Source of the DNA: Argopecten irradians | Taxonomy: Eukaryota; Mollusca; Bivalvia; Pectinida; Pectinidae | Direction of reading: 5' to 3' | NCBI RefSeq assembly: GCF_041381155.1 | Contig: NC_091134.1 | Location: forward strand, 17,362,008 to 17,426,007 | Length of the DNA: 64,000 nucleotides | The notes under the pieces: model-generated | Told to the model about the DNA's origin: nothing | Databases searched by the model: none | What the model saw: the letters and a program-made list of their open reading frames with translations, nothing else | Shown: positions 28,001 through 46,361 of the stretch, one piece after another | Numbering within the stretch: position 1 is the stretch's first letter | Layout of the letters: each line of letters begins with the position of its first letter | Translations under genes and position numbers: made by a program

Positions 28001-31000
28001 CAAATTAATCAATGCTTATAACAGGTAGTTAAAAGAAATACCAAAAAGATACAGTAATTATTCGTTTAGGCAGTTATGAACTGTGAGTTGTAGTGGGGAA
28101 TCCAGGGTGATTTTTTGGGCTTCAAGAAACTTCCTATCTGTAAGAATTTTCTTAAAAACATTATGTATTTTTCGATAATTTCCTTAATATTACACTCCTG
28201 GAATCCCTTAAAGTCCCATTATGTTTTTATGAATGCTCTACAAATTAAATATCGATGATCCTGATGAATTTATCTTTACTTAATTTTGTTCAAATATGTA
28301 CAGCTTCGACAAAAATGCATATTAAAAATATATATAGATAGAACACGTAAATGTGTATGTCTGAAAATAGCCTATGTGCTTGTACGTACCCGGATGATCA
28401 CCAGGTAAATCCCAGCGACACCACGGGGAAATTTAGAACAAGTTTAGATATATTAAATGTTTTACAATGATCATCCTTATAAAAGTTCTTGGTTCTTCTT
28501 TCCAAAATAAAAACACAATACTTCAGTAGAACTATATACTCCATTCTGATGACTTTAAACATGCACTTGTACGCTAAAACTACAATAGAGTGAAGTATTA
28601 CTAAGTAGAGAATACCCCTCAGATGCCTCTTAAGCGAGTGCATGTACCCGCTTCGCTCTTACAATGTACCTGTGTAGGGTGCATTTTATGTTCTCATACA
28701 AAAGTGGTTGTTCACTTAATACTTGCTTATTCCCAAGTAATTGACTTTCCATGGTTAACTCTCTAACTGTTTTCATATGAACAATCTCTGATAATAGTTT
28801 TTAAAGGATTTGATGATTTAAAGTAGGATTTTAATTAATGCTCATAGAGACTCATTTATAAAAATGACGAAAATAAGATGACAATGCATTAGCGTCATCT
28901 ATTAGTTGACAAACATACCTTGAGTCAAAGGTTATACAAAGCAGTTCTCATGTGTGATGTTTACCCACGTGTGGACTGTGGCACCAACAAAGCGTAACAA
29001 CGGGATCCCCTGGTATTCCCCCATCATTGCTACAATCCGGATTAACTAGGACATTTTTAATTAAGAAATATCACCATAAGGATATCAACTCTGTAATTTC
29101 TACGATTAAATATATTGCAAAAACCTAATGGGACTTTAAGGGAATTTGTAAACCCTAATATAGTTCTCTGGCTCCCTCCCCGAGTTGTATGATATAATAC
29201 TAGCAGTTTTCACTTACAGGTCTTTCTGCAAACGCTCTTTGGTATGCTGTTAAAACAAAACACATAGAAAGACTGTAATAAATATAATCAGTCAGAATTA
29301 TTTTAGGCAAGTTAGATATAAATCTTATTACAAGGGTCGAAATTAACTTCTTTATTCACTAAAGCAATTCACTGTGAGTGGCAAAAATTTCTACTAGCAA
29401 ACTGGAAATCTAGACTTGCAAAATATCTAGTGATGAATTCATTCAATATAAATAATGTTTTATATAACTACTTGATCAATATCATTGTCCTGTGTATAAT
29501 ACTAGAGGATGCAAAGAGAGTTAATGTAAAGATGTCTTTTTACAAAGATAACTACATATGTGTACATATAATTCTTAGTAATATACCTGTAACACACAAA
29601 TCATGTACCTGTAGAAAAATGGTCACAAATTACCAGCTATACCCACCAGTTTCTGGGACTTGGGCATCAGCTGTCTCCATAGCAACATCATCATCTCCAC
29701 ACAGGCCAGCTGTATTCCCTGATGCTATAGGACTGCCTGATTGTGAGGTTGTTGCTATGTGATCCTCTGGTTGTGAGGTTGTTGCTATGGGATTCCCTAG
29801 TTGTGAGGTCATTTCTATGTGACCTCCTGGTTGTGGAGCCATTGCTATGTGACCCCCTGGTTGTGGGGCCATCGCTATGTGACCCCCTGATTGTGAGGCC
29901 GTTGCTATGTGACCCCCTGATTGTGGGGCTGTTGCTATGTGACCCCCTGGTTGTGAAGAAGAATTCCCTAATAGATTAACCATTGGTACTGTTTCAGCTC
30001 CTGAAGGGATCACCAAACTATAGGCCAGACTTGCTGGACCTGATTGATCTTCTGCTGAAGGCTGATGTGTCCCACTGCTTTCCTCTGGTAGCTACAAATG
30101 TAATTAGGACTAAAACTACCACAAACTCTGGTATGATAAGGAAGTAATTTGGTGAGAACTTAATCTGTATTGGAACAGAACAGCTAAATTAAGCATACAA
30201 AACATATTTGATTGTAAAAAGTATAAAGTTAGCAAATTGTAATGTATGCATATTGTAACTCTATCAAAATCTATTGATACTGGCTAGACATATTGCCAAC
30301 AAAACATTATTTGCTGGAGGTAAACATCAGAGGCTAACCTAAAATAGAGATTCATGAGACTCTGTACCTGGGCAGTAGTTGGTCCTCTGTTAACACTGGA
30401 CTGACTAGATGTCTGGACTGGTGGTACTACTTCACAATGTCTTGGTGGCACCTCTGCCCTGAAAGGGACAGGCAGGCCCCTCAATGTAAGTTCATTGTCC
30501 TCCAACGCATTTGCTAAATCCTCATGTCCAGAGCTGCGTAGACATTTCATGAACTTCTGATAAGCTTTTGGGCCACGCCTCACTAAATCATCTAAAAGTT
30601 TCCGTACTTTATCTGCTCTTGTTTTTTCAGCCTAAAAGTTAACAAAAAGTAAATATTCATTTTGTATAATAAGAGGCAACTTACAGACATGGCTATAAAA
30701 GTTTAAAAATATAGTTGAACCTTAAAGATGTTCCACCGCCAACAGAGCATAAAATATTCTCATCATTTGAACAAGATTTGGCGCTTACTCATGTACATAT
30801 GTCTAATTAACACAAAAAAATTATATAAAATAATTTATTTTGCTTTTGGAGCATGCGCTATAAGTACTTCTTTTTTATTGAGAAAAAATACTATTTGTCA
30901 GCAAAAATAATTAACCTTCAGTATAAATGATACTGAACCTGTATGTACTCCATCATTATAGGGGTAAAAATACCCTCTGCCACCAACATGTCCCATAGTT

Positions 31001-32495: not shown

Positions 32496-33411
32496 GGGAG
32501 ATTTATTTTTACCATAGAAGCAAAATATGGTAAAGAATTATGTCATTTAAATGTCATGATCTCAAAGGAGAGATAGCGAGGGGTATAATTAGCCATTGGC
32601 TTACAGTTCTAGGTTTAGTTTGAATATGATAAAAGCTAGGAAAGTGTGAACAGAGTCCATGATTGTCACCTTATACAAATGTATCTTATCAATCTTTTAT
32701 TGTGATTGCAGTGAAAAATGGCTGTAAAACAGAACAGATAATTTATTATCAAGAGTCTGAATGAATATACAAAGTAAGTACCAGTATATTTTTTTTTATT
32801 TTGTAGCAAAATTATCTGTTACCTGTTACCTCTTCTTAGACACCGTAGTTAGCTGGTTCCAGCTAGTTGTGGCGCGTTTTGTTCATTTACTAAGTTATTG
32901 TCCGGTTGTGCCATATAAAAACTGGGGTAAAATTTACATGGTGCTGAATTCCAGTGAGTGTTAAGTCGGTTTTTAAACGAGTTCAGAGTAGGGGCTTCTA
33001 CTACGAAGTTTGGAAGGGAGTTCCACGAATCTACCACTCGCCGACTAAATATACTTTGTGTGACTTTAGTCCTGCTCTGTTTCTTAAAGAGTTTTAAACT
33101 ATTACCTCTAGTACTAGCTGAAGACATTGTAAATAGCTTGTCTTTATCTAGTTTATCTATTCCATTCAGAATTTTATAGACTTCGATCACATCGTTCCTT
33201 TTACGTCTATATTCTAAGGTGAGAAGTCCCAACTTTTTAAGTCTTGAATGGTATGGTAGATCTTCAATAGAGTGAACTCTTTTAGAAGCTCTTCGTTGGA
33301 CGTTTTCAAGAGCGATCTGATCTTTTTTTAGCAGTGGAGACCATACCTGGGTTGCATATTCTAAGTTAGGTCTAAAATTAGGCTTTGGTACAGGGTTAAG
33401 AACATAGTTTT

Positions 33412-34360
33412 ATCGCACCTCGGACAGAAATGTCCCCAAATGATTGGCGGAGAGCCGTCACGTGGTGACCCCCTAATACTTTATAGGGGGTCAGTAAATT
33501 TTATTATGGTGCAATATGGCGGCTGTCGCCCTCGCTTCAAAATTTTAACACATTCTCTTCAACTAAATATACCATTTCTTTACCGTAAAAATATATTTTA
33601 CTTTTTATTTTTTATGTAAAATTCATTTAAAATCGTTTCTATACTTCAAAATAAATGAAACGCATTTTTTTTAAATACGAGTTGCTTCCCCTACGCCAGT
33701 TTGAAAGTTGATGACGCGGTGAAAGTCAAACGTAAGAATTCAAGCGTTTTCTTGACTGCGACCATAAACAAATGGAGGGGTTCGTATCTTTAGATCTATC
33801 AACCCTCACTCTTCAGCTAATTTATCGGCATTACTTTAAGTGATTATCTCAGCGAGAATGCAGAGATGATCATGTGTCTGCGCTATAAATGTTGGATGGA
33901 TGTTTGTGTCACTTTTGTTTGTGATGCTTTCAATATACAACCAGTCTGATGTCGCATTGAGGTAGGCCTATTGTGCACTAGGAATGTCGAATTATTGTTC
34001 TTCAGGTTCCTTATACAGTTATTTGCAGATTCCGGAAAGAAATACATACATGTAAATAAATACGTAGGCCTACTGTATGCCAAATATTTAAAAATGCGGC
34101 GATGTTGTATACTTCGCCAGCATGGTTCAGGTTTGATATCGGATTCCTGAGAAAACAAATAGGAAACAAAGATCTAATGAAACAAATAAATGGTCCTCGA
34201 TGCGATAAATTCGTTATATAGTCAGTTACTGACCCCCTATAAAGGCATAGAGGGTCAGTAAGAAGTATAGGAGGCTCGGGCTACGCCCTCGCCCCCTATA
34301 AATCTTACTGACCCTCTATGCCTTTATAGGGGGTCAGTAACTGACTATATAACTAATAAT
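33412..34360. mobile_element. ~950-bp non-autonomous element inserted in the LINE
   Basis: The insertion is precise: LINE homology breaks at ...FVYID and resumes at KTMFL, with an ATC at both junctions. Near its left end is TTTATCGCACCTCGGAC, matched by GTCCTCGATGCGATAAA at about 34195-34210 (subterminal inverted repeat). The right end is a very strong hairpin (34213-34353). The left end also carries the related GACCCCCTAATACTTTATAGGGGGTC. No ORF of note. Subterminal inverted repeats plus a 3' hairpin are features of Helentron-like non-autonomous elements, but TIR-type MITEs cannot be excluded. Confidence 0.7.
34213..34353. repeat. Perfect 50-bp inverted repeat (41-bp loop)
   Basis: The arm 34213-34262 (GTTATATAGTCAGTTACTGA...) is exactly complementary to 34304-34353. 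The loop is itself nearly palindromic (TATAGGAGGC ... GCCCCCTATA), so the whole 141 bp can fold into one long hairpin. It is the right end of the element inserted in the LINE. Confidence 0.95.
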
Positions 34361-35368
34361 ATCTATATAGACAAATGTCCTGAATATTAGCCCCAGTATG
34401 CGATTTCCTTTGTTAACTGCTTGACTAACATGCTGACTAAATTTAAGTTTGTTGTCGAAAAGTACACCTAAATCTTTCTCACACTGTACCTTCTCTATTT
34501 GTTCATTTTGTGGGAAGGAATAATGCGTATCTTGTTCTAGATTACCTATATTGAGGTGTTTGCATTTTTTAGTGTTCAAGGCCATTTTCCAGTCTCTAGT
34601 CCAAGTGACTACACTGTCTATGTCTGCTTGAAGTTCTTGAGACTCAGTAGGGTTATTGTTGTTTCTAAAAATTTTAGAGTCGTCAGCAAATAATTCTATT
34701 GTGCTATGTTGGACTACTTCGGGTAGGTCATTGATATATATCAGAAATAGAACAGGACCTAAGACACTACCTTGTGGTACACCACTAGTCACATCTACAA
34801 GTCCAGAAGTTTCACCATGAATAACAACTCGTTGTTGTAGGTTGGATAAGAAGTCTTCAATCCACTTCAGTACTTTTCCGGTGATACCATAACCCTTTAG
34901 GTTTTTAAGTAGATGTTTGTGAGGGACTTTGTCGAAAGCTTTACTGAAGTCTATATAAATCGAATTGACATTACTCCCTTTGTCTATGGCTTCTGCCCAG
35001 TGTTCAAGGACCTCCAATAGATTGGTAGTACAGGATTTACCAGATCTAAAGCCATGTTGATGTTCTGTGAAGAGATGATTCCTGTCCATATGGTCTACGA
35101 GCTTGTCCCTAATGATTCTTTGGAGAATTTTGCCTGGGATTGAAGTCAGACTTATTGGACGGTAGTTCTCCACTTTGTTGTGATTCCCACTCTTGTATTA
35201 TCTTAACAATTCTGCAAAAAGGGTTCTGACTAGTATATTCAATTTGCTATTAAACAAGTGTATAGTATTTTGATGAGATCAGTATATGCAGCATCCTTTT
35301 ATTAACCCCAAACCTTATGTTCTTGTTCCTTACTTCAGGTGTTAACCAATAACTTATAGCTGGCTATA

Positions 35369-38300
35369 ATGGAAGAAATTCACAGGAAAGCTTTACAGAA
35401 GACGCGGACTAAACTCGTTCGTGACCTTGACCCCAGTTGCGAACTACAGGACCAGTTGGTGTCTGAACACATATTCACTCCGATAATGCTAGAATATATA
35501 CAGGTAATTACTGGATTGATATACCTTGATTGATAACCCATGCTCACCAATATCAGATTGAATTTGTTTCTTCCATGGTCCATCATCTGCATATCTGTCA
35601 CTGTTTGTAACGAAATGTTGTTGACATTATTTCTCAAACTTTATATACATTGTACTTGTAGGTTTTGTATTTGTTTTCACTTGTTTGGTCTTAATAATTT
35701 TAACAATTAAGGCCCTTGGCTTCTTGTTGCTCACCTGGTCCAAAGAACTAAGATGACATGATACAATATTGTTGTCCCCCAATGCAGAATTATTTTTCAA
35801 AGCTTGAGATGTTAATGAAGGAACATATCACCAAATTATATGTTTGGATATCATGGTTGATTCCAGGCTGAAAGGACACGATCAGATAGGGTGAGAAGAC
35901 TATTAGATGATTTGGTGAGGAGAGGACCAAGGGCTTACTCAGTATTTCTGAAATGTTTACGGGAGTCGGGACATGAGGATTTGGCCAATAGTGTGGAGGA
36001 CAAAGAGTATGAACTACGAGGGATACCTCCCCCTGTCAGGTTAGAGCGTCATAGCGAAGGTGCTTCTGTTATATCGACACCTACGACGATCTACACCCGT
36101 GAGCAAGGGCCAGCGGTAAACCCTGTAAACAACGGGATCCAACCTTCACAACCTTCTGGTGTACAGCCACAGGAATATCAGACCATGCCACATCAGCCGT
36201 CAGATGACAACAACCCATATAGTAGTATGTTCGCACCTTCTGGTGCCAGCATGTCTCAACAGTTAGCCAATCAGGGGTCAGATATGAGTCATGTGACCCC
36301 AGGTCAGAGGAGTGAAAATGTGATGGAAGTTGTCGATGGAGGTGAGCCCCAGACAACAGCTGGTAAGCAACAGTAATTACTGTAATGGGAGTAAAAGAAA
36401 GTGCATTGACCATTTTTATCCTCATTAAACACAGCCAAATCTGTCTATAAAGACCACCTAAGGGACAGGGAAAATGTGGTCCCTATAACCAAGTGGCCTT
36501 TATACACAGGTCAAATTTGGCCATAAGCGGTCATTTGATACCCTAAGAGAGTGGTCTTAAATAATAAACAGGTGGTCTATATATACAGAGGTGGTCACTG
36601 AGGCAGATTTTTTTGTATTTTTCTTAAGTTGTAGTTCCATTTGCATCAATACCAAATTCATCAAGTAAAATATTGCAATTGAAGTTATTCAAGGATACAT
36701 GTACATATCTCTCTCAGAATTATTTCCAACCCACATTAGATAAAGAAAATCAATTCTTTGATAATTACGTATACTGATACAGACTACCAATTACTTTACA
36801 AATTTGGTATAAACACAAAATTCGTGATTTTTATAACTGAGGACAAATACGGTATATAAAAAAATGAATTAGCTGATGAAAAACCAAAATTTACCGCAAA
36901 TACACAATACATTACATTTCATATTTTGTGCATGTAAGCAAATACTATACTTAAGTACATTCAGGTGGTAAATAATTTAAGATCCATGTTTGTTTATTGT
37001 AGAACCTGTCATGAGTGCATATCAGATGGCTCCAGAAAATAGGGTATGTAAAAGGGACTGAAATTACAGAAACTATAAATTGTTTAAAAACCAAAGTGAG
37101 GAAGTTAGTTACTGCCCCACATGGGTCCCCTTGTTGATATCTGAGAGTGTTTGCAAAACATTTGTCAATGCAAAAAAAAATCATCAAGCATTGGTCCATT
37201 TTTTAGCTCACCTGGTCCGAAGGACCGAGCTCGGTGAGCTTATGGGATACCGCGGCGTCCGGCGTCCGGTGTCTGTCGTCCGGCCTCTGTCGTCCGTCAA
37301 CAATCGACTTCTTCTCCATAATCACTGCTCGCATGTCGACAAAATTTGACTGGTAGCATCCTTGTGTGCTACTACCTGAAAATGTACAAATGATGGGACT
37401 GACCCCCCAGGGGTCTGAGGGGCGGGGTCAAAAGAAGTCAATTTGGCTAGCAACTAAGCATGGGATAGCACCCATAATGCAATGGTAGCATCCTTATAGT
37501 GTGGGGATTCAAAATTGTACAAATGATTGGGCTGACCCCCCTGGGGGCCTGAGGGGCGGGGTCAAAAGGGGTCAATTTGGCTATTTCCATATAAACAATT
37601 TCTTTTCTGAATCTAAGCATGGGATAGCACTTTTAATGCAATGGTAGCATTGTTAAAGGATGCGAATTCAAAATTGTACAAATGATGGGGCTGACCCCTG
37701 GTGGCCTGAGGGGCGGGGTCAAAAGGGGTTAATTTGGCTATTCCCATGTAAACGACTTCTTTTTTGCAACTAAGCATGGGATAGCACTTTTAATGCAATG
37801 GTAGCTTCCTTATAGGGTGGGGATTCAAAATTGTACAAATGATGAGGCTGACCACCTAGGGGCCTGAAGGGCGGGGTCAAAAGGGCTCAATTTGGCTATT
37901 TCCATATAAATGACTTCTTCTTTGAAAGTAAGCATGTAGGGATATCAGCCATAATGCAATGGTAGCATCCTTGTAGGGTGGGGATTCAGAATTGTGCAAA
38001 TGATAGGGCTGACTCCCGGGGTCTGAAGGGCTGGGTCGAAAGTGGTCAATTAGACTATTTCCATATAAACGACTTCTTCTCTGCAACTAAACATGGGAAT
38101 TGGCTCATAATGCAATGGTAGCATCCTTATAGGGTGGGGATTAAAAATTGTGCAAATGATGGGGCAGACCTCCCAGGAACCTCAGGGGCGGGATCAAAAG
38201 GGGTCAATTTGGCTATTTCCATATAAACTACTTCTTCTCTGCAACTAAGCATGGAAGAGCACTCATAATGCAATGGTAATATCCTTATAGGGTGGGGATT

Positions 38301-41300
38301 TGAAATTGTACAAATGATAGGGTTGACCCCCCGGGGCCTTAGATGCGGGGCCAAAAAGGTCAATTGGGCTTCTATTTTCATATGAATTACTTCTGCTCTG
38401 AACCTATGTATTGGATAGCATATTTGTATGGTATCTATAGCATCATTATATGGCTGTGATTTAAAATTGAACAAATTTTAGAGTCAATTTTGCTAATTTT
38501 TCTAATTGTAAGAGTCTTTGTGATAATTACTAAAAAAAAACCAGGTGAACGATACAGGCCCTCTGGGCTTCTTGTTTTTTCAGCGATACAAAATGGAATC
38601 CACTCCCAGGGGCCTGTGTTTCATTATCAACAACAAAAACTATGTGAACATGCCTATTTGTGAAGGGACTGATGTGAATCGGGACCAACTCAGTGATCTG
38701 TTTACTTCTCTCAGTTTTGGAGTAGAGACCAAGAATGATTTAACAGGAGCAGTAAGTAGAATGAAAAGACAATACGTCAATATCAAGATACTATAACGAT
38801 GTGGGTAACGTACGAATTACTGTTGATTAATCCGAGGTTCCAGTGATTGTCACATCATATTTTGATGAGATTTTTGTAAAGTCACAATCACCAGAAGGTG
38901 GGACTAATCGACGGTAAATCATCCTTTACCCATGTCATATTTATATTTCGAAACCCTTCTATCTAACAGTGATACCACTTTTTAGCACGTCTTTTGAAGA
39001 AAAGAATGACCTTGGCAATGGTCTCATCCTCTGCATTGGTTAAGGTTTGAATGTAATTTGTGAAATATTATTGTCTATAATCTGTCTGTGTCTGGAATCA
39101 TGATTATATTTTCTCTCATACCTACACATGTAATACTGGCTGATCTCTCATACCTACACGTGTAATACTGGCTGGTCTGTCATACCTACATATGTAGTAC
39201 TGGCTGGTCCAGGGCAATACACTCATGTCGCCTGAGGCTGTATTGCATCGCTACCCATACAATAAAACCTCATGACATCACAGTGTTAACAAAACAAAAA
39301 AATTAAGGTACAATTTTAACAATTTTCTCCACTAGGTTGAAAATATCATGCAATTTTCATGTAATTAAGAATTAACTGATAAATATTCAGAAGCAACTAC
39401 ATATCTCAAAAATAATTCTCTCACATTTAGCCCCTAAACATTTCAACAGGAAGGTAGGCGTGCACTTATTAGATTCAGTATCCTGTTAATCTTAATACAA
39501 TATTTAAGGATTAACTTGAATAGATACAATATTTAAGGATTAACTTGAATAGATTTTTTATGTTATGGAGATATAACACAAAAATCTGAGAGTACTCTAA
39601 ATAATCCGCGAAGCGGTTTATGATGAGAGTACACTCAGATTTTTGTGTTATATCTCCATAACATAAAAAATCTATTCAAGTTAATCCTTATAATTCAATT
39701 TACTAAAGATAATCTCTTCAATATTCAAGATTCATTTTGGGACTCTTTTGTCTATGAAATCATTACGCCGTCATCTCAGCCAATCAGAAGCAACGTTATT
39801 TTTTCCTTTATGGGCTGATAAAGTAAATTTTTAAGCCAATGAAAATGCTCGTAGCAAGCAAAATTGAATTATTTAAAGCAAATGGCAATTTCACTGGATC
39901 TAAAGGGGTTCCATGATATTTATCTTCAGTGTGTATGGAATTAAAAAAAACCCAGATTAAACCTGACATGAAGGTGTGGCAGTTTACTTTTCTTTATTGT
40001 TTTAGGAAATGAAGAGCATATTATCAGAATTAACCCGATATGAAGGTTTGACGATAGTGGACTCCCTTGTCGTGTGCCTCCTGTGCCATGGCGATAGCGA
40101 CAATGTGTATGGAATAGACGGCGAGGCAGTTAATCTTCTCAGTGACGTCTTCAAGATATTTGGCCCTCAAACATGCCAACCTATGATTGGAAAACCAAAA
40201 TTATTTGTTTTGAATTCCTGTAGAGGGCGTGAGTGTATAATATTTTGACCACTTTTTGTATCGCCTGCAACGCAAGGGCGACACTTAGGTATCACTAAGT
40301 CAGGCGTCGGCATTGGTGACGGCGTATGGGAAATGGTTTCCATGCGATAACTTAAGTATCTATCGTTCAATTTCAACCAAATTTGGTATGTTGCTTTATA
40401 TCAATGAGATCTCGCATGAGTTCGATAATGGTCAAAATCCGTCAATATTTGCAAGAGTTACAGGACTTTAAAATTGTCAAAATAGATAAATCCATGGTTT
40501 CCGCTCGATAACTTTAGTAATTATTGTCCGATTTCAACCAAATTTGGTATATTGCTTTATATCAATGAGATCTCGAATGAGTTTGATATTGGTCAACATC
40601 CGTCAATATTGCAAGAGTTATGGGACTTTAAAATCGTCAAAACATGGTTTCCGCTCAATAACTTTAGTATTCATTGTCTGATTTCAACTAAATTTGATAT
40701 ATTGCTTTATATCAATGAGATCTTAGATGGATTTGATACTGGTAAAAATCCATCAATATTTGCAAGAGTTACAGACCTGTTAACTTCACCTAATTATTAA
40801 CAATATTTTCAACTGTAAATAAGTTTTTTTGTGATGCTGTCCAGGCGACACATCCACTTCCGTGGAATTCTTGTAATAATATAAATATGTATGATCATGG
40901 TTTGCCACTATGGTACGTGTAACCACCTAGCAGGAAGCGTGTATAATCAGTGACATTGATGTAGGTTTTCTGCAATCCATCATCAGAATAAAACAAACTG
41001 AGTAATTGAAACCCTGTTTCATATTGATATTTATACATTGTAATACATGTATCAAACATGAGCTGTAAACTTCTATTGAATTGTCGCCAGTAAAACCGGT
41101 AAGTCGTTGTTTCTTTCTCCACAGGTGAGCGAGATTTTGGCAGTCACTTCAGTACTGTTGAGTTGCAGCCTACAGTAGCACAGGCAGACGTCACACTTCA
41201 CCCCCCTTCCAATGTACCAGACGTCCGTCCCACCACCCAGTTAACACTACCAGAGACTAACCCTTCCTTCAAGGATCTCTACATAGCCTACTCCACATTC

Positions 41301-43814
41301 CAAGGTATCCGTCATACTAGCAAAATATTTCTCTTGATGACCCAAAATAGTGAAAATTTTAGTTTATTATTGACAGACAGTTGAACCTCTTTGATGACTC
41401 AATTTGGCTCAAGACCAGATTTAATCTGAACTATTTCTACTGTGTATCCATGACATTATCTGTAAACTGACTTATTTTAGTGCAACATAAATTAATATTT
41501 TCATGTCTAACGATTCTTTCACAGCGATTTACAAATATGTAATTTAGCAGTTTAGAGTTATAGGATTGTTGTATACATCTTCTTTTAAAAGTACAATAAT
41601 GCTTTTAGATATTAATGTTTCAGAAAAATTAAAAGTGCATGTTTCAATTATCAGTTATGATTTTGCACTGATAACATCATGCATCTGTCTTCGGCGGTCA
41701 TGTTTACTTAAGATTTTTTTCTTCTTTTTCATCTTTTTAGGACATGTTTCCTACCTTGATAGTGAGGACGGCAGTTGGTTTATACAAAAACTTGTAGAAG
41801 TCTTCAAGGAAGAAGCCTCACTTTATGAAATAGATATAATGATGAGAGAGGTTTGCATTATATCTAACTATCTACAAATTTTTATCTCATACTGTATTAG
41901 CTCACTCAAATGTTCGATGTAATTGGTATACACAATTACGCTCAGACAAATTTTAGCGCTGTACTTAAATGAAGTGCAATGACGTGCTAAAATTTTCATT
42001 TCAAATTGCAAATATTTTGACTTGCAAAAATAACGGGCTATATGATATCATCTGGAAACCAAAATTTGATGAAATTTTATTTTTTATTTTTGCAATAATG
42101 ACCTTTGGCCCAAATCCTTTCTCAAGTTGTCATCAGTAAACCCAGTATCTGGACAGACAGAGACCAACACTCTAGTCACTCCTGATAAAGGATGTAACGA
42201 GAACCGAATGAAATTGTTCAACCTTCCTTTAAACATCAGTCAGACTCCCAGAATACAATATTTACAAGTTTATTTATAACAAATAATACTAATTACAGTC
42301 ATAGCAGCACATAACACACACTCATACAACAGGCTCTCTCCATCTAACGTTATCATGATATATTATGTACAGATGTTTATTTACAACGATATAAAAATGA
42401 TCATCATATGGTTGCTTTCCATTGGTACAATCCACTGTTCGGAAATAACTAGGTGAAGGTCACACAGACCCGTCACTGGTGAATGTAGAGGTCACACAGA
42501 CCCGCTAGTAGTCGTAGAGGCCACACAGACCTTCTGATAAATGTAGAGGTCATACAGACCCGCGACTTGTCGTAGAGGTCACACAGATCTTCTGGTATAT
42601 GTAGAGGTCACATTGGCTAGCGACGATATGGCTTAATGGCATATGTATCCATCAGTTTCTGGATAGTTCTCTAGTTCTCCATGGGTGGAAAGCTATAATA
42701 TACGTATGTTATGATATAACACCAATTAACAATTATATGTTTGCTCTATACAAATAAATGCTATTTATCTTAATATTGACTATCTCAAAGGCATACTATA
42801 TAGCTATATCACTAATACTAAGATAATCATCTCATTTCTAAGCATTTATGGTAAATAATATCACGTATGCTGACTTAACAACCTAACAATGCTTTACAAA
42901 ACACACCCGGCCTCATACTCACGCATATACACATGGCCCGTGCACACACGTTACCGTGTACGCAAGCACAAACGCCGGGTGAATTACACCTAACCATAAC
43001 TTATAAACTATAGCAAATACCTATATATATGAAACCTCATTATAATTAATACTATGACAAGGACATATAAATGTATTTACTTACCGCAAGCTGTATTTCG
43101 CGCTCTGAATTCCAACCCTGCTATTGTTCGCTACCGTTTTACCTGTGTCCTCTGCTTTCAACTCACACCTGTGTGCATGTGTGACTTACCTTTCGGACTC
43201 TTTAGAGAAACTTAAATGGCGCGAAATCCAAATTACAAACTAACATACATATAATTATACAATGGCACGTGACAAAGGACTTATAGATTAATAGACTCGT
43301 ACATGGGACTATTTTGAAAGATTTTGGCTGCCAACCCTCGGCAAGCTCCGAGTTGACCAGCCAACATTTTTCACTCGGGTTGAGATATCCCTGTCCACTG
43401 ATAAACCCATGTTTAATTTTTTTTCTCCCATGTTTTGAAGAAAAATTCAGTTATTTAGAGTTATTTCTATAGTGTCAACATCACAGAGATGTCGCAATGC
43501 ATCTTCAAAAAATGATGATGTCCTTGACAGTAGTCTCCACAAGTATCGATGACATCATTGTCAAGCGCATGTGAGCTGTCTTTTCTCTACCCTGGTAAAA
43601 GACAGAGATAACTTTTTCCCAAGCAACTGCGGGATAAACTTGTCAAGTGTTGGAGAGAAGAAAATGCAGTATTAAATGAATATAATTTTCCCTCTAGGTA
43701 AACCGTCGTGTCGCCAGTGATTATGATCCCAGTTCATTAGAAGTTCAAATGCCGTCACCTTCCAATACTTTAACTCGACAGTGGTTCTTCAACCCACCTC
43801 AGCAGGGACAATGA
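35369..43814 (+). CDS. CARD caspase B, catalytic dyad kept but P1-Asp pocket altered
   Basis: Eight plus-strand exons with matching phases give 489 residues: 35369-35503, 35867-36362, 37003-37043, 38584-38751, 40006-40228, 41125-41304, 41741-41850 and 43698-43814. The CARD (1-98) and the protease domain (from 225) are close to caspase A. Exon lengths of 135, 223 and 110 are identical between the two genes. A's exons 2 and 3 correspond to one exon here. His308 (LLCHGD) and Cys352 (LNSCRGRERD) are present. The two arginines that hold a P1 aspartate in caspases are replaced: the GTDV loop reads PICEGTDV (Cys250) and the SWR motif reads SYLD (Leu420). The protease may thus have a new specificity or act mainly as a scaffold or regulator of A. 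Introns are rich in repeats, and a repeat abuts the acceptor of exon 38584. The tail is QMPSPSNTLTRQWFFNPP. Confidence 0.92.
36428..36612 (+). repeat. Dispersed CTATAAAGACCACC repeat
   Basis: Built of recurring words CTATAAAGACCACCTAAGGG, AAGTGGCCTTTATACACAGG and GGTGGTC. A diverged copy lies at about 27735-27830 in a caspase A intron (AAGTGGTCTTTATACGCAGG). It lies in the intron after exon 2 of caspase B. Confidence 0.55.
37204..38578 (+). mobile_element. Terminal-hairpin repeat element abutting a caspase B splice acceptor
   Basis: Starts TTAGCTCACCTGGTCCGAAG followed by GGTGAGC (hairpin) and a GTCCGGCGTCCGG-rich head. It ends AACGATACAGGCCCTCTGGGCTTCTTGTTTT. In between are about seven or eight ~170-bp units with ATGCAATGGTAGCATCCTTA, GGGTGGGGATTCAAAATTGT, GGGGCGGGGTCAAAAGGGGT and TTCCATATAAACGACTTCTT. 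No ORF. The pyrimidine-rich end runs straight into TTCAG, the 3' splice site of the exon at 38584. A fragment joining the same kind of ends (GGCCCTTGGCTTCTTGTTGC followed by TCACCTGGTCC) lies near 35710. Confidence 0.85.
39535..39689. repeat. 64-bp inverted repeat (27-bp loop)
   Basis: The arm 39535-39598 (AAGGATTAACTTGAATAGAT...) is complementary to 39626-39689 with one mismatch. The loop carries its own mini-hairpin CCGCGAAGCGG. Part of the left arm is also directly duplicated just upstream (TATTTAAGGATTAACTTGAA twice at 39501-39550). It lies in the intron between caspase B exons 38584 and 40006. Sequence to the right, up to about 39880, ends in AAATTGAATTATTTAA, which is inverted relative to ATAATTCAATTTAC at 39691, so a larger MITE may surround it. 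Confidence 0.9.
40257..40873 (+). mobile_element. Repeat element (TATCGCCTGCAACGCAAGGG family)
   Basis: Starts GTATCGCCTGCAACGCAAGGGCGAC and ends CCAGGCGACACATCCACTTCCGTGGAATTCTTG, so both ends carry small hairpins (GTCGCC / GGCGAC). Inside are three ~125-bp units with TTTCAACCAAATTTGGTATA, TTGCTTTATATCAATGAGAT and CAAGAGTTA-GGACTTTAAAA. It lies directly after the donor of the caspase B exon carrying His and Cys. Confidence 0.7.
42120..43210. repeat. Repeat-rich intron segment with ~33-bp VNTR
   Basis: In the last intron of caspase B. About 42445-42612 holds four to five imperfect ~33-bp units built on GTAGAGGTCACACAGACC. Flanking sequence (TCTGGACAGACAGAGACCAA..., CGCTCTGAATTCCAACCCTG...) looks like a dispersed element, but no ends or ORF could be fixed. 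Confidence 0.45.
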
Positions 43815-43852: not shown

Positions 43853-44345
43853 GTTGGAGCAGAAACAAAAAGCTCTGGATCAGACACAAATAGCTCTAGA
43901 GCAGAGACAAATAGTTCTGGAGCAGACACAAATAGCTAGGAGCAGACTCAAAAGTTCTGGAGCAACACAAATATTTCTGGGGCAGACACAAATAGTTCTG
44001 GAGCAGACACAAATAGTTCTGGAGCAGACACGAAAAGCCGTGGAGCTGAATCAAATAGTTCTTGAGCAGACGCAAATAGCTCTGGAGCAGACACAAATAG
44101 CTCTGGAGCGGAATCAAATAGTTCTTGAGCAGACAAAAATAGCTCTGGAGCAGACACAAATAGTTCTAGGGCAGACAAAAAGAGTTCTGGAGCAGACACA
44201 TATAGCTCTGGAGCAGACACAAATACCTCTGGAGCAGACACAAATACCTCTGGAGCATGCAGACACAAATACCTCTGGAGCAGACACAATAGTTTTGATG
44301 GAAAAATGGAGCAGAAAAAACTCAGGAACAGACACAAATAGTGTA
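43853..44345. repeat. 21-bp tandem repeat just past the caspase B stop
   Basis: About 23 units of type CTGGAGCAGACACAAATAGTT, with variants. The unit is a multiple of three, so frames on both strands stay open (LEQTQIA-type heptads on plus, SAPELFV-type on minus). These are most likely by-products and not proteins. The array starts about 40 bp after the caspase B stop and so lies within its presumed 3'-UTR. Confidence 0.9.
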
Positions 44346-44943: not shown

Positions 44944-46361
44944 ATAGTTTGATGTCTGTTATTTTACCAGTAGTTGTATCAGTGAAATAGTTTGATGTCT
45001 GTCATTTTACCAGTAGTTGTATCAGTGAAATAGTTTGATGTCTGTCATTTTACCAGTAGTTGTGAAGTCTTATCAGTGAAATAGTTTGATGTCTGTCATT
45101 TTACCAGTAGTTGTATCAGTGAAATCTTGTGTAGTTTGATATCTGTCATTTTACCAGTAGTTGTATCAGTGAAATCTTGTGTAGTTTGATGTCTGTCATT
45201 TTACCAGTAGTTGTATCAGTGAAATCTTGTGTAGTTTGATATCTGTCATTTTACCAGTAGTTGTATCAGTGAAATCTTGTGTAGTTTGATATCTGTCATT
45301 TTACCAGTAGTTGTATCAGTAAAATCTTGTGTAGTTTGATATCTGTCATTTTACCAGTAGTTGTATCAGTAAAATCTTGTGTAGTTTGATATCTGTCATT
45401 TTACCAGTAGTTGTATCAGTGAAGTCTTGTGTAGTTTGATGTCTGTCATTTTACCAGTAGTTGTATCAGTGAAATCTTGTGTAGTTTGATATCTGTCATT
45501 TTACCAGTAGTTGTATCAGTGAAGTGTTGAGTACTTTAATTTGATATCTGTCATTTTACCAGTAGTTGTAGCAATGAAATCTTGTGTAGTTTGATATCTG
45601 TCATTTTACCAGTAGTTGTATCAGTAAAATCTTGTGTAGTTTGATATCTGTCATTTTACCAGTAGTTGTATCAGTGAAGTGTTGAGTACTTTAATTTGAT
45701 ATCTGTCATTTTACCAGTAGTTGTAGCAAGAAATCTTGTGTAGTTTGATATCTGTCATTTTACCAGTAGTTGTATCAGTGAAATCTTGTGTAGTTTGATG
45801 TCTGTCATTTTACCAGTAGTTGTATCAGTGAAATCTTGTGTAGTTTGATGTCTGTCATTTTACCAGTAGTTGTATCAGTGAAATAGTTTGATGTCTGTCA
45901 TTTTACCAGTAGTTGTATCAGTGAAATCTTGTGTAGTTTGATATCTGTCATTTTACCAGTAGTTGTATCAGTGAAATCTTGTGTAGTTTGATATCTGTCA
46001 TTTTACCAGTAGTTGTATCAGTGAAATCTTGTGTAGTTTGATGTCTGTCATTTTACCAGTAGTTGTATCAGTGAAATAGTTTGATGTCTGTCATTTTACC
46101 AGTAGTTGTATCAGTGAAATAGTTTGATGTCTGTCATTTTACCAGTAGTTGTATCAGTGAAATAGTTTGATGTCTGTCATTTTACCAGTAGTTGTATCAG
46201 TGAAATCTTGTGTAGTTTGATATCTGTCATTTTACCAGTAGTTGTATCAGTGAAATCTTGTGTAGTTTGATATCTGTCATTTTACCAGTAGTTGTATCAG
46301 TGAAATCTTGTGTAGTTTGATATCTGTCATTTTACCAGTAGTTGTAGCAATGAAATCTTGT
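44944..46361. repeat. 43/50-bp satellite array, ~1.4 kb
   Basis: About 29 units, each containing GATATCTGTCATTTTACCAG and TAGTTGTATCAGTGAAAT. Two unit lengths alternate: a 50-bp form with CTTGTGTAG before TTTGAT and a 43-bp form lacking 7 bp of it. A few units have GAGTACTTTAA variants. The high identity between units implies recent expansion or gene conversion. No coding potential. Confidence 0.95.

Follow-up and report, generated by a model that had tools for sequence, protein, structure and literature searches.

Caspases bind the aspartate at P1 of their substrates in a basic pocket, S1, which is built from the side chains of an arginine, a glutamine and a second arginine; in caspase-7 these are Arg87, Gln184 and Arg233, as given in the description of the pocket in PMC4357240. 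In PMC11121540 mouse caspase-12 is argued from its Arg341Lys replacement to be a pseudocaspase, with a proposed role as modulator of a related caspase, while cFLIP-L, whose gene adjoins that of caspase-8, has lost its catalytic residues and pairs productively with caspase-8. CASPS18 of Aedes is an inactive paralogue, called in PMC4840389 a decoy that enhances CASPS19 (it is also mentioned in PMC3141678).

Bivalve caspases are varied at these sites as well. The S1 Arg and Gln are stated to be "deleted or mutated in many" caspases of Mytilus coruscus (PMC10967218), and S1 substitutions are recorded for M. galloprovincialis (PMC3037946). The oyster has caspase-2-like CARD genes, Cg2-like A-C, with unusual pentapeptides, of which Cg2-like A and B are placed close together; Cg2-like C is described as having no His, and Mg2-like as having neither His nor Cys (PMC7836458). 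According to the same article, a direct homologue of caspase-9 was not found in bivalves, and PMC10967218 places six bivalve genes in a group with vertebrate caspase-9. For Chlamys farreri, PMC8878197 describes six CARD caspases and a pentapeptide that varies in many of the caspases of this species. No paper on the gene described here, caspase B of the scallop Argopecten irradians, was recognised among the papers that searches of the open-licence literature listed.

Caspase B resembles CED-3 and caspase-9 in joining a CARD to p20 and p10, with a first loop as long as that of CED-3, but all three of its S1 residues are replaced. Mouse caspase-12, too, is altered at the second arginine of S1; the replacement in caspase-12, a member of the inflammatory group, is a conservative lysine, whereas both arginines and the glutamine are replaced in caspase B. 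Like cFLIP-L, it is encoded beside an active relative and has kept a recruitment domain and the fold; however, the catalytic residues are lost in cFLIP-L and the His/Cys dyad is kept in caspase B. The recruitment domain of cFLIP-L is a DED, not a CARD. CASPS18 differs, going by its description only, in that it is said to have no catalytic domain of its own and to be of the effector type (PMC4840389). The caspase-2-like genes and caspase-2/9 expansions of bivalves (Cg2-like A-C, Mg caspase-2 and the caspase-2/9 genes of Mytilus coruscus) are, again by description only, similar to caspase B as CARD caspases with unusual pentapeptides and reported changes at S1, and the reported loss of catalytic residues in Cg2-like C and Mg2-like sets these two apart from it.

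Caspase B and its neighbours

The window, by which we mean the whole stretch of 64,000 nucleotides that was analysed (G000:C1:17362008-17426007, from a genome of 846 Mb in 1508 contigs), holds caspase B, a divergent gene for a second CARD caspase, caspase A, and a gene for a protein with a CARD only (Table 1). The start codons of caspases A and B are 4296 bases apart. Pfam recognised in caspase B a CARD (2.1e-16) and a Peptidase_C14 domain (4.5e-43, residues 233-479, covering p20 and p10), and both domains also in caspase A. The sequence-only reading, made before this analysis, had dealt with the part of caspase B that runs from the start of exon 4 to the end of exon 7 (38584-41850).

Table 1. 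Genes, exons, diagnostic codons and other features of the window (positions counted from its first letter)
Feature	Position	Strand	Remarks
Caspase B gene, coding part	35369-43814	+	8 exons, 489 aa; all introns GT/AG; no internal stop; model predicted from DNA
Caspase B exon 1	35369-35503	+	
Caspase B exon 2	35867-36362	+	
CARD of caspase B (Pfam)	35384-36001	+	residues 6-90, in exons 1 and 2
Caspase B exon 3	37003-37043	+	
Caspase B exon 4	38584-38751	+	p20 start
Cys250 codon (TGT)	38659-38661	+	first P1-Asp arginine site, exon 4
Caspase B exon 5	40006-40228	+	p20
His308 codon (CAT)	40087-40089	+	catalytic His, exon 5
Asn350 codon	40213-40215	+	S1 Gln site, exon 5
Cys352 codon (TGT)	40219-40221	+	catalytic Cys, exon 5
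Caspase B exon 6	41125-41304	+	intersubunit linker and p10 start
Caspase B exon 7	41741-41850	+	p10
Leu420 codon (CTT)	41755-41757	+	second P1-Asp arginine site, exon 7
Caspase B exon 8	43698-43814	+	p10 end and stop
21-bp tandem repeat	43855-44289		~21 copies, directly past the caspase B stop codon
50-bp tandem repeat	45031-46361		27 copies, further downstream of caspase B
Open frames of reverse-transcriptase type	32849-33409 and 34334-35197	-	between caspases A and B
Caspase A gene	31073-25060	-	9 exons, 552 aa; divergent from caspase B; model predicted from DNA
Caspase A exons	31073-30939, 30631-30368, 30091-29647, 29246-29218, 27635-27459, 27070-26848, 26710-26549, 26222-26113, 25173-25060	-	
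30-bp coding minisatellite	29736-29956	-	7.4 copies, caspase A exon 3
Residues 299-317 of caspase A, second match	29131-29075	-	caspase A intron 4, weak (E 7e-4)
CARD-only gene	17167-16192	-	exons 17167-17033 and 16527-16192; 156 aa; Pfam CARD 5.5e-15, Peptidase_C14 not reported

By their best matches among solved structures, caspases A and B look like CARD caspases of the initiator type, which would be recruited to a platform, perhaps of the Apaf-1 type, as the likeness of the CARDs to that of caspase-9 suggests. Caspase B has the N-terminal CARD in two exons by which CARD initiators are recognised. Among PDB chains this CARD is matched best by that of caspase-9 (1.3e-11), and the CARD of caspase A matches procaspase-9 at 2.4e-13, second by a narrow margin to a chain (2.1e-13) whose name is given simply as "Caspase". 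The protease domain of both has CED-3 as its best PDB match (1.6e-33 for caspase B).

The CARD-only gene follows the coding part of caspase A at a distance of about 8 kb. In all three genes the first coding exon measures 135 bases, and the intron within the CARD has the same position. Neither the Peptidase_C14 search nor tblastn of caspases A and B revealed a caspase exon in the vicinity of the CARD-only gene, where tblastn gave CARD matches only. The gene was absent from the matches of an exon-by-exon CARD search of the genome, and it matches the CARDs of RAIDD (2.9e-5) and caspase-9 (2.3e-4) weakly. A weak splice donor may be present just ahead of its stop codon. In primates CARD-only proteins adjoin caspase-1; the scallop gene is a possible natural CARD decoy.

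Several other features were observed around the two caspases. The minisatellite in exon 3 of caspase A lengthens the linker between CARD and protease, and the second match in intron 4 is perhaps the relic of a duplicated exon. The open frames between the genes, recognised by eye as reverse-transcriptase-like, belong to a LINE-type element near the start of caspase B. The tandem-repeat scan listed no repeat in the coding exons of caspase B.

The S1 pocket of caspase B

The sequence-only reading held that caspase B has lost both arginines that bind the P1 aspartate and has kept the catalytic His and Cys, and the codons confirm it: Cys250 and Leu420 stand at the two arginine sites, and His308 and Cys352, the two residues by which membership of the caspase family is judged, are in place. 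Caspase A does carry both arginines, as had been claimed (Arg320, AGA; Arg484, CGG), together with His378 and Cys422. It is nevertheless not fully canonical at S1, since the third S1 residue, the Gln two positions before the catalytic Cys, on which that reading was silent, is replaced by Asn in both proteins (Asn420 in caspase A, Asn350 in caspase B). Caspase A is changed at this position only; in caspase B all three are changed, leaving it without the Arg, Gln, Arg pocket for a P1 aspartate.

The match of arginine to cysteine at the first site is not a choice of alignment, because phmmer aligned caspase B to CED-3 without a gap through the first loop (MPICEGTD against MPTRNGTK) and Cys250 also falls under the arginine in the alignment to caspase-3. 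This loop had been pointed out as three residues shorter than in caspase A. The length was correct, and caspase-3 has the longer loop as well, but it is no oddity: CED-3 and the locus L023 have loops as long as that of caspase B, and a deletion peculiar to caspase B was rejected.

How often these sites vary was judged from the caspase exons of the same genome, where a Peptidase_C14 search gave 44 exon-level matches, all of them in the window or in the other retrieved loci. The exons were scored with a profile seeded with caspases A and B, CED-3 and caspase-3, with rows accepted up to E 0.1 and overlapping loci counted once; the tallies are of exons, not genes, and many genes are represented without every exon. 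Arginine was found at the first site in 15 of 16 scored exons, the exception being the Cys of caspase B; L024, which has Pro there and which we take by its motif to be a paracaspase-like gene, was left out of this tally. The second site has Arg in 15/17 exons, with Leu in caspase B and Gln in L031. At the remaining site Gln is present in 20/23, with Asn in caspases A and B and Glu in L031, although the Gln read at exon edges (L036 and one piece of L025) may be translated intron.

Other loci showed changes of their own. At L030/L031 (C6 39.72-39.73 Mb) a CARD match is followed 7.5 kb on by caspase exons, probably as parts of one gene, and this probable CARD caspase is partly altered at S1, with Glu for Gln (EACPG) and Gln for the second Arg; the first Arg is kept. 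Tyr replaces the catalytic His in an exon at L038 (C2 6.24 Mb), and an exon at L043 (C13 10.15 Mb) has Phe at the catalytic Cys if its edge is read rightly, which may be translated intron. The acidic residues that follow the two lost arginines in caspase B, Glu251 and Asp421, were considered as special to this protein and rejected as such, Glu following the first site in the Arg-bearing paralogues L025, L026 and L039 (3/15) and Asp the second in L021 and L040 (2/15).

Constraint on the two sister caspases

In a tree of 14 sequences of joined exon matches, in which several deeper nodes are weakly supported, caspases A and B group together as sisters with an aLRT of 99.4 and an ultrafast bootstrap of 100, on branches of 0.37 and 0.40. 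Relative-rate counts of changes seen only in caspase A or only in caspase B were 14/21 with CED-3 (p 0.31) and 13/9 with caspase-3 (p 0.52), showing no significant difference. Pairwise codon maximum likelihood gave a dN/dS of 0.058 for p20 and p10 (2 delta lnL against 1 = 166), a rough value that averages the branches of A and B at a saturated dS of 5.2. The CARD gave 0.149 at a dS of 1.46, and the prodomain linker 0.070 at a meaningless dS of 10. Because both branches are averaged, free drift of caspase B over most of the time since the two separated does not fit these values; a late relaxation may have occurred.

We compared the two proteins over 39 columns that are at least 80% conserved, with at least 8 rows, among the other caspase exon matches of the genome (E up to 0.01), CED-3 and caspase-3. 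Caspase A retains 32 of these and caspase B 29. Six, including the Gln site, are lost in both, and one is retained by caspase B and not by caspase A. Four are retained by caspase A and lost in caspase B, where Cys250 and Leu420 each replace an Arg, Arg478 replaces Lys and Phe481 replaces Tyr; of these, only the two S1 arginines are non-conservative losses. That four columns drawn at random from the 32 kept in caspase A would include both arginines has a probability of 0.012, a value that rests on one gene and on two sites named by the sequence-only reading before the count was made. His308, Gly309, Cys352 and the motifs around them are all retained in caspase B.

Caspase B scores below caspase A with Peptidase_C14 (148 against 167 bits) and with CED-3 (119 against 129 bits), and some extra divergence of caspase B is possible on account of these lower scores; against caspase-3 (4qud) it scores higher (115 against 107 bits). 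A scan of viral contigs with exon 5 of caspase B found no relative. Taken by its sequence, caspase B gives no impression of a copy in decay, and the earlier statement that it is not a simple dead copy is upheld by purifying selection averaged over A and B, by rates that do not differ significantly and by non-conservative loss confined to S1.

A probable regulator of caspase A, or possibly a protease of another specificity

Of the two readings offered earlier, a caspase with an altered P1 preference or a CARD-bearing regulator, we favour the regulator and keep the other as its rival. Caspase B is probably a CARD pseudocaspase of the caspase-9/CED-3-like kind, whose role would most likely be to regulate its sister caspase A. 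It has the features of a pseudocaspase, a retained fold, judged by sequence profile only, together with loss of a residue needed for cleavage. With its CARD and dyad kept, and with an S1 that has no aspartate-binding side chains, it is expected to be unable to cleave substrates behind Asp or to bring about its own activation at such sites. We suppose that it would join the same CARD platform as caspase A and pair with it through the p10 dimer face, and that it would then either supply caspase A with a partner, the part that cFLIP-L plays for caspase-8 and that is ascribed to CASPS18 for CASPS19, or dilute it. Regulation of caspase A by pairing is inferred from the adjacency of the genes and their shared type of CARD, and its direction may be either of these two. 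Retention of the dyad and its motifs at saturated dS suggests that these still matter, which speaks against a pure scaffold. The retained dyad is the main reason for leaving the case open: caspase B may yet be a protease that cleaves behind some other residue.

An active protease with an S1 that takes a residue other than Asp, either a neutral one or a basic one held through Glu251 and Asp421, is a less likely reading that we nevertheless take seriously. It would explain why the dyad, the oxyanion Gly and most conserved columns are retained under purifying selection, and there is precedent in MALT1, which is described in PMC4357240 as having acids at the three corresponding positions and cutting after Arg. 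The S1 residues of caspase B are however neutral (Cys, Asn and Leu), and the acidic neighbours occur, as said above, in paralogues that have their arginines. A caspase of the MALT1 or paracaspase type, with Arg at P1, was rejected, no acid standing at Cys250, Asn350 or Leu420. Rather doubtful is the fuller form of this reading, in which the S1 of caspase B has been re-made as a non-basic pocket and this CARD protease still works, now cleaving behind neutral or basic residues, on one platform with a sister that cuts after Asp. If it were true, one CARD platform would serve two cleavage codes.

The intact catalytic residues are also compatible with a weak Asp, or Asp/Glu, protease that holds the P1 carboxylate by its main chain or by another basic residue. 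We consider this very improbable, as no new basic residue lies beside either site (MPICEGTD, SYLDSEDG) and the Lys of NNKNY is found in the same place in caspase-3 and hence is not a replacement. Dronc, with a changed pentapeptide, tolerates Glu. That caspase B is a copy on its way to becoming a pseudogene might be argued from the loss of two otherwise near-invariant residues and from a profile score somewhat below that of caspase A, yet it is very unlikely given the points listed above against a dead copy. Its splice sites are intact too, and none of its 489 codons has become a stop at saturated dS, though a stop would arise from 4.5% of single base changes. Least credible of all is an error of assembly or gene model that hides arginines present in the real transcript. 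There is a single assembly and the model comes from DNA alone, but both codons lie inside single open-frame exons, and tblastn with the two proteins across the entire window gave a single copy of each caspase exon, 4 and 7 included, at the caspase B locus, none of which would restore an arginine. The window showed no sign of the different exon choice that the sequence-only reading had named as a possible refutation.

The regulatory reading of caspase B is the one we prefer. Loss of S1 residues in bivalve caspases is already published, as the statements in PMC10967218 and PMC3037946 make plain, and caspase B adds a clean case. The catalytic residues themselves are described as lost in cFLIP-L (PMC11121540); in caspase B the dyad instead stands and the specificity pocket alone is gone. 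Its neighbours are a sister that has kept the two arginines and, not far off, a CARD-only relative. It forms with caspase A a natural pair for study, one that lets us ask whether a caspase that has lost the pocket for Asp serves as a dimer partner, as a competitor or as a protease with another target residue.
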